Position numbers and translations under genes: made by a program. Shown here piece after piece: positions 6,250 to 6,752 of a stretch of DNA of 32,293 nucleotides. Under the pieces are notes generated by a model. It did no database searches, was not told the DNA's origin, and saw only the letters and a program-made list of their open reading frames with translations. Positions within the stretch are counted from its first letter, which is position 1; every line of letters begins with the position of its first letter. Source of the DNA: Spirochaetota bacterium (GTDB lineage Bacteria > Spirochaetota > UBA4802 > UB4802); assembly GCA_026414805.1 (NCBI GenBank), contig JAOAIH010000037.1:1-32293 (forward strand), read 5' to 3'.

Positions 6250-6414
6250 CTACTTTTTTAAATCATTCAGATTTTTATTTTGATTTTTATCAATGCTCTG
6301 TTCCACAGGGCATGATTGCGATAGTCAGGTGCGTATGCCAAATTTTGGTAACACCCACACATTAAGCGCAATCCATGCTGCCATGAGGATTAAAAACCAA
6401 AGTGCTTCTTTCAT
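6250..6414 (-). CDS. small membrane selenoprotein (54 aa, UGA/Sec at codon 30)
   Basis: Reads MKEALWFLILMAAWIALN (one transmembrane helix), then VWVLPKFGIRT, then an in-frame TGA at 6325-6327, then LSQSC and a polar, Lys/Asn-rich tail to a TAG at 6250-6252. Sec30 and Cys35 would form a U-x4-C pair just outside the membrane helix. ATG 6414 lies 17 bases after the stop of the HesB-like gene, with AAGAAGG upstream. A bacterial SECIS-like hairpin lies 20 bases after the UGA. I recall small Sec proteins of the form helix-LPxxGVxTU-x4-C in metagenomes, but that is recollection. Without Sec insertion the product would be a 29-residue peptide. Conventional callers will miss this gene. Confidence 0.75.
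6289..6316 (-). promoter_or_regulatory. bacterial SECIS-like hairpin for the small selenoprotein
   Basis: Minus strand: AUC-AUGC, one C/A mismatch, CUGU, loop GGA, ACAG, GCAU, a bulged U, GAU. That gives eleven pairs with a GG-containing three-base apical loop. The loop begins 20 bases after the UGA (6325-6327), within the distance SelB normally tolerates. The conserved feature of bacterial SECIS, guanines in the apical loop, is present. Confidence 0.6.
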
Positions 6415-6431
6415 TATAGTACCTTCTTAGT

Positions 6432-6752
6432 TTAGCAGCTGCATGAAGAATCACAGGATGAACCTGTATCTACCATAAAACCCGAGCCATACGGAGTTTC
6501 AACAAAATCTATTTTAATGTTAGTTCCAGCATCCATAAATCGGGCAATATCACTGTCATAGATTACTGGTATTTCATTTGCTATTATAACTGTGTCTTTA
6601 CTGTTTTCTGACTCATCCAGAGCCAGTCCCAAACGGGGGCCACCTCACCCTATTCCCGAAAATACTAATCGCAACCCTGGATGTTTAAAGTCAACATCTT
6701 TGGCAGCTTCAATTATTTTTTGTTTAGCTTGATCTGTTATAATTATATTCAT
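6432..6752 (-). CDS. HesB/IscA-like selenoprotein (106 aa, UGA/Sec at codon 36)
   Basis: An A-type iron-sulfur carrier fold. Starting at ATG 6752 the frame reads MNIIITDQAKQKIIEAA, then LRLVFSGIG, then TGA (6645-6647), then GGPRLGLALDE, IPVIYDSDIARFM, KIDFVETPYGSGFMVD, and ends in a Cys cluster CDSSCSC. The context GIG-U-GGP is the hallmark of the known HesB-like selenoprotein family, where Sec replaces the first metal-binding Cys of IscA-like proteins. The start has AAAGGAAAG six to seven bases upstream. Conventional callers would report only the 66-residue part after the UGA. It is the first gene of an operon with the small membrane selenoprotein. Its presence implies that SelA, SelB, SelC and SelD exist elsewhere in the genome. 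Confidence 0.88.
6608..6626 (-). promoter_or_regulatory. bacterial SECIS-like hairpin for the HesB-like selenoprotein
   Basis: Minus strand CUGGCUC, loop UGGAU, GAGUCAG: seven consecutive pairs including one G-U. The stem starts 18 bases after the UGA and the loop 25 bases after it, within the usual bacterial SECIS window. The loop contains the expected guanines. A competing smaller hairpin (GCC-CCC / GGG-GGC) sits nearer the UGA. Confidence 0.6.

Follow-up and report, generated by a model that had tools for sequence, protein, structure and literature searches.

The locus

The window (the whole stretch of DNA analysed, 32,293 nucleotides) carries two closely spaced genes with an in-frame UGA on its minus strand (Table 1). 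The downstream one is the subject of this work. Its translation, with TGA taken as U, is MKEALWFLILMAAWIALNVWVLPKFGIRT-U-LSQSCPVEQSIDKNQNKNLNDLKK, a protein of 54 aa. With UGA taken as a stop the product would be 29 aa long, the length that a sequence-only reading of this DNA had also given. All elements described in that reading (one transmembrane helix, LPKFGIRT, the in-frame UGA, LSQSC and a polar tail) are present, and the ORF indeed begins 17 nt after the stop codon of the HesB-like gene. The gene had further been called the second selenoprotein of the stretch, its strand (minus) being left unstated; the comparative evidence given below supports the Sec reading.

Table 1. Features of the two-gene locus.
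Feature	Position	Strand	Evidence
Selenoprotein gene, 54-aa single-pass membrane protein	6250..6414	(-)	TGA=U translation; homologues in Spirochaetota, Desulfobacterota, Planctomycetota, Acidobacteriota, others
Start ATG and stop TAG of the same gene	6414-6412 (ATG), 6252-6250 (TAG)	(-)	
Predicted Sec codon UGA, residue 30	6325..6327	(-)	UGA in 99 distinct homologues; Cys codon in four genomes without detected Sec machinery
Transmembrane helix, residues 2-23	6345..6411	(-)	AlphaFold2 and Kyte-Doolittle
Shine-Dalgarno-like AAGAAGG, 6 nt 5' of ATG	6421..6427	(-)	Sequence
SECIS-like hairpin, GGA apical loop at 6304-6302	6289..6316	(-)	Fold z, two-sided pair changes, register test
HesB/IscA-like selenoprotein gene, UGA at 6647-6645 in IGUGG, C-terminus CDSSCSC	6432..6752	(-)	PF01521 and NF038090 matches

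In the AlphaFold2 model of the 54-aa protein, residues 2-24 form a helix (pLDDT 86-89 for residues 1-20) and the remaining chain is of low confidence. The same layout recurs in the homologues described below: a short N-terminus is followed by one hydrophobic helix, by [NQ][RK]W[IV]LP[RK]xG[VI]xTU, by MSxSC and finally by a polar tail. The best 19-residue Kyte-Doolittle window has a mean of 2.0 over 99 homologues. Members are usually 44 to 60 aa long, reaching ~90 aa in Planctomycetota. The 13 residues before Sec contain on average 2.0 K/R against 0.04 D/E in these 99 homologues, and the segment N-terminal of the helix 0.4 K/R against 0.7 D/E. Because the stretch before Sec is rich in K/R, we infer from the positive-inside rule that Sec and the C-terminus face the cytosol.

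The HesB-like ORF matches PF01521 (E = 8e-9) and the IscA_HesB_Se model NF038090 (E = 2e-14, under its cut-off). In neither of the HesB selenoprotein models does its score reach the cut-off (53.8 of 85 and 43.5 of 66.35 bits), which suggests a divergent subfamily. A HesB-like selenoprotein gene lies directly upstream in most Spirochaetota loci of the family, usually at a distance of 6-24 nt.

Distribution and conservation of the family

Relatives of the 54-aa protein occur in about 29 of 148 related genomes. This search gave matches in 34 genomes at a loose cut-off, the weakest of them due to chance, and most matches contained one internal TGA. The UGA occupies the same column in all 27 aligned relatives, with P, G, T and U invariant. 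When 84,980 species genomes were scanned with the 27-sequence alignment, one degenerate pattern alone returned 261 relatives. Among the best 80 of them, all 80 carry TGA at the Sec site, and their record titles name Spirochaetota, Deltaproteobacteria/Desulfobacterota, Planctomycetota, Acidobacteria, Verrucomicrobia, Armatimonadetes and KSB1.

Profile searches in phylum samples located the family in 169 of 395 genomes of Desulfobacterota (43%), 57 of 247 of Acidobacteriota (23%) and 27 of 296 of Spirochaetota; 25 of 246 Planctomycetota genomes matched, two of them by chance, leaving ~23. TGA is present in every listed match from Desulfobacterota and Spirochaetota, and likewise in all Acidobacteriota matches that end short of the Sec column (L184-L188). 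Two low-scoring matches without a stop (G661, G732) were rejected as chance. No homologues were found in the viral contigs searched. Judged from these searches, the family spans hundreds of bacterial species in several phyla.

Its signature consists of one transmembrane helix followed by [NQ][RK]W[IV]LP[RK]xG[VI]xT-U-M-S-x-S-C. All 99 distinct proteins have P, G and U, and nearly all have W at U-16 (97/99), T at U-1 (97/99) and L at U-8 (93/99). All but two of the 99 also carry a Cys between U+4 and U+7. The U-x4-C arrangement proposed from the single sequence is thus the usual spacing and not an invariant one, and a fixed U-x4-C redox pair had to be rejected. The two Spirochaetota members without Cys in this interval (L042, L043) keep LPxxGxxTU and have Leu in place of Cys at U+5 (UMAQFLSL, UMTPFLSV). 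The Cys is retained in several members in which its distance from Sec has changed (L040, L052, L080, L101, L116), which argues for its role at the protein level. The residues written as CSLDE or CAVSP, on the other hand, are partly constrained by RNA, since the stem of the hairpin encodes much of them.

Several Spirochaetota genomes also carry a second, divergent UGA-bearing paralogue (L189-L194). In four of the six read its tail is very short, for example RTUMSRTCSLDGRK.

Reading of the UGA codon

The imperfect GGA-loop hairpin reported in the sequence-only reading folds with -9.1 kcal/mol (z = -1.96 against dinucleotide shuffles), and its loop begins 20 nt past the UGA, as had been stated. 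Across the family, synonymous shuffling, which holds the protein fixed, gives weaker hairpins behind the UGA than the natural sequences have (mean z -1.44, n = 97). In 51 of 98 sequences a run of at least six pairs falls in one of three registers, compared with 9.5 in synonymous shuffles (shuffle maximum 19); the three registers were picked from the very sequences that were later tested. Covariance, which had been named as the test of the hairpin, was sought in 26 Spirochaetota sequences. All six stem pairs show two-sided changes there, and 71.8% of cells are paired against 38-55% in slid controls, a value reached by none of 500 shuffles.

The motif M-S-x-S-C behind the UGA is kept among the 99 distinct homologues, so that conservation past this codon, also named beforehand as a check, was met with. 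The dN/dS-like ratio is 0.51 after the UGA, where the hairpin limits synonymous changes, and 0.21 before it; by this measure the post-UGA codons are under purifying selection. Because the same DNA encodes protein and hairpin, we did not take residue conservation alone as proof and used synonymous shuffles and Cys forms instead. For the same reason the Cys forms, together with the Sec machinery of the organism's own genome and of other carriers, weigh most.

A Cys homologue at the UGA position, the remaining check proposed in advance, was found four times, and only four homologues with a Cys (TGY) codon there are known to us from these searches (G723, G737, G794 and G1020). Three are from Planctomycetota, namely LLPRLGMQT-C-LSGMC (L173), ILPRLGMQT-C-LSGLC (L174) and VLPWLGIPT-C-MSGGCC (L175), and one from Acidobacteriota, VLPAMGIGT-C-MSGAC (L183, G1020). 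SelB was detected in none of the three Cys-form Planctomycetota and in 19 of 20 UGA-bearing ones of the same sample (p = 0.002 in Fisher's exact test, worked out by hand). The sole UGA-bearing genome without SelB, G565, has tRNA-Sec at 74.6 bits. No tRNA-Sec was found in the Cys-form genomes G1020, G737 and G794; G723 gave one match of 49.9 bits, with the cut-off at 47 bits and best matches elsewhere at 59 to 81 bits. Among UGA-bearing genomes, tRNA-Sec went undetected in two of 26 tested (G849, G863), and of 23 carriers examined for SelB, 20 gave a score over the cut-off.

The organism's own genome contains tRNA-Sec (71.7 bits), selA and selD at one locus and selB elsewhere. Its SelB scores 304 bits and is interrupted by one in-frame TAA in this assembly. 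The TAA lies in the middle of an otherwise continuous frame (L009 433-2100, C77) and may be an assembly error or a true lesion.

We are practically certain, on comparative grounds, that the gene at 6250-6414 encodes a selenoprotein of an unrecorded family and that its UGA is read as Sec through SelA/SelB/SelC/SelD and the downstream SECIS hairpin. Short of a detection of selenium in the protein, the Sec reading appears close to proven. The reverse assumption, that translation simply ends at the UGA and yields a 29-residue peptide, agrees with standard ORF calls, which terminate at this codon, and is hardly credible in the face of Cys codons replacing it in genomes without detected Sec machinery, of conserved and selected residues behind it and of the conserved downstream hairpin.

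Genomic neighbours

There is no universal operon partner. Pfam tallies of neighbours are diverse, and the HesB-like selenoprotein, FmdB and DUF2892/rhodanese are each limited to certain lineages. Linkage to enzymes of sulfane sulfur is strong in Planctomycetota, present in Acidobacteriota and weak in Desulfobacterota; in the first two phyla the neighbours concerned are sulfide:quinone reductase, MBL-rhodanese, YgaP/DUF2892, CoA-disulfide reductase-rhodanese and TauE.

In Planctomycetota, YgaP (rhodanese + DUF2892) or DUF2892 lies within 6.5 kb of the gene in seven of 24 genomes (G160, G161, G723, G725, G827, G831, G833), where ~0.04 would be expected. The expectation is based on 20 PF11127 matches in ~162 Mb over the 24 genomes, some of which are related. 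MBL-rhodanese is encoded near six loci (L073, L079, L086, L111, L173, L174). The last two, both Cys forms, share an operon with the order TauE, MBL/rhodanese, LPxxGxxTU-family protein, SQR-like protein, an unknown protein and a SoxA/TsdA-like cytochrome c. The SQR-like protein reaches 262 bits with the model of type III sulfide:quinone reductase, the cut-off being 525 bits, and the best sulfur-specific model for the MBL-rhodanese is Blh, again with a score under the cut-off.

In Acidobacteriota, CoA-disulfide reductase-rhodanese is encoded directly upstream of the Cys form of G1020. DUF2892 stands beside the family gene in L185, and the order in L188 is DUF2892, ArsR-like regulator, family gene, FmdB. 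Within the interval from -212 to +75 relative to the L185 gene, the DUF2892 gene ends ~2 nt before the selenoprotein gene, which suggests that the two are translationally coupled.

Desulfobacterota, where the family is commonest, have mixed neighbours: often FmdB, sometimes CcdA, NrfD or TrxB, and little SQR or persulfide dioxygenase. The FmdB zinc ribbon is encoded no more than ~0.7 kb away in 23 of 154 loci (L071 and L188 included), a count with some duplicates; the loci belong to several phyla, and FmdB may precede or follow the gene. The FmdB family is listed as having Sec members (PMC13188914). Because the role of FmdB is unknown, these neighbours do not argue for sulfur.

Possible function

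The gene neighbours suggest that the protein helps cells to handle reactive sulfur. A redox or metal site, as envisaged from the sequence alone, is not ruled out; genomic context points to sulfane-sulfur (persulfide) chemistry. We propose a membrane-anchored selenol that takes sulfane sulfur at the cytosolic face. Topology and persulfide chemistry are inferred here without any biochemistry, and we regard the proposal as no more apt to be right than wrong. Anchored by its helix, the protein would have the C-terminus in the cytosol and present the Sec selenolate at the inner membrane surface. Sulfane sulfur in the form of persulfide or polysulfide would reach Sec from enzymes of the membrane or the cytosol, the candidate donors being sulfide:quinone reductase, rhodanese/YgaP and CoA-persulfide reductases. 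The resulting intermediate might be Sec-S-SH or Sec-S-Cys, from which sulfur would be handed on or reduced, with the nearby Cys as a possible resolving residue. Two members have no nearby Cys, so the mechanism cannot rest on a fixed U-Cys pair alone. For the organism of the window, the co-encoded HesB-like selenoprotein may be imagined as a partner in sulfur or Fe-S handling.

Against such a sulfur relay stand the lack of any universal neighbour, the mixed neighbours in Desulfobacterota, the scores of MBL-rhodanese and SQR under their own cut-offs and the absence of confident structure beyond the helix.

The 97 members with Cys close to Sec would also suit a membrane-anchored redox partner. 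Here a Sec-Cys selenenylsulfide would link a membrane substrate with thioredoxin/TrxB, CcdA or respiratory Fe-S/NrfD modules by electron transfer, no sulfur being carried. CcdA is encoded near L134, L136, L141, L148 and L152, TrxB directly upstream in L132 and L135, and NrfD within ~1.6 kb in L058, L088, L112 and L142. These neighbours are, however, lineage-limited, and the densest conserved context is that of sulfane-sulfur enzymes; the distance from Sec to Cys, moreover, differs by as much as three residues among members, and L042 and L043 have lost the Cys. Electron transfer of this kind remains possible and, in our opinion, rather unlikely.

Sec and Cys could also bind a soft metal or metalloid (Cu, Zn, Hg, As) at the membrane, as a ligand or accessory in sensing, delivery or efflux. 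Many selenoproteins are thought to be metal binders (PMC13188914), FmdB zinc-ribbon neighbours are frequent, ArsR-family regulators adjoin the gene in L082 and L188, and RND-type genes lie near L082 and L185. ArsR regulators of the BigR/SqrR type, however, sense sulfide and persulfide as well; the regulator at L082 gives matches to both BigR and metal sensors, always under equivalog cut-offs, and no metal transporter is found among the conserved neighbours. We consider a metal function improbable. Slightly less probable still is a helper of Fe-S assembly, with the HesB-like A-type carrier as its partner, which it would supply with persulfide sulfur or dock at the membrane: the HesB-like selenoprotein gene does precede most Spirochaetota loci, but in other phyla HesB is not the neighbour.

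We thus retain the uptake of sulfane sulfur by a membrane selenol as the working hypothesis. In its broadest form the proposal describes a family of microproteins of ~45-90 aa, among the most widespread bacterial selenoproteins, with Sec as the rule and Cys rare, serving as a membrane selenol carrier of persulfide sulfur, a role of selenium in sulfur trafficking without a precedent known to us. Taken as a whole, this statement is more tentative than the selenol hypothesis itself and falls a little short of even in our estimation.

If the sulfur link is true, selenium and sulfane-sulfur metabolism are joined at the membrane. With 43% of sampled Desulfobacterota and 23% of Acidobacteriota, the family would rank among the common bacterial selenoproteins. 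It also exposes a blind spot, as methods hunt for Sec by Cys/Sec pairs and the ORF stops at 29 codons if UGA is taken as a stop. The signature permits immediate re-annotation in hundreds of genomes.

Relation to known selenoproteins and neighbouring families

No Pfam, NCBIfam or Rfam model matches members of the family, Rfam has no match anywhere in the window, and the PDB holds no sequence relative. Nothing corresponding is listed in Table 1 of PMC13188914, the May 2026 catalogue of 119 prokaryotic selenoprotein families, and none of the families credited there to Haft and Tolstoy 2025 (10.1128/msystems.01417-24) corresponds to LPxxGxxTU. The earlier suspicion of a poorly described family was therefore an understatement. 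The family is unrecorded in the catalogue and models searched; a prior mention in 10.1128/msystems.01417-24 or in the paper on the Olavius algarvensis selenoproteome (10.1093/nar/gkm514) cannot be fully excluded.

It has been noted that selenoproteins without Cys homologues may be filtered out, all known ones seeming to have them (deep-Sep, PMC12013277). Our family was likely missed because discovery pipelines require Cys homologues, which are very rare in it: four Cys forms compare with UGA forms numbering well above 250 (at most ~1 in 60). In the catalogued families Cys members mostly far outnumber Sec members, whereas here Sec members far outnumber Cys members. With the usual ratio reversed, the family lends itself directly to testing why organisms keep Sec.

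Families of PMC13188914 and NCBIfam, including UXX-star, SaoC and TsoA/B/C/X/Y, are likewise small, with one Sec and a downstream bacterial SECIS, and several catalogued small selenoproteins are tied to metal or sulfur chemistry; none in PMC13188914 combines LPxxGxxTU with one transmembrane helix. Two other families are encoded next to the gene. The HesB-like selenoprotein (TIGR01911 / NF038090) adjoins it in Spirochaetota, probably in the same operon, but has the soluble fold of A-type Fe-S carriers and a sequence unrelated to the membrane protein. The FmdB family zinc ribbon (TIGR02605), which also adjoins the gene, is soluble and unrelated in sequence too.

There is a weak resemblance to the YgaP-like transmembrane domain or DUF2892 (PF11127), some members of which end in WCPxxxIL[SKR]xLG[LIV]xPC, similar to W[IV]LPKLG[IV]xTU of our family. 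Membership in YgaP-like_TM/DUF2892 was rejected, as no member matches PF11127 and hhalign gives a probability of 20 over 15 columns. DUF2892 proteins have two transmembrane helices and no Sec, whereas LPxxGxxTU proteins have a single helix and Sec.
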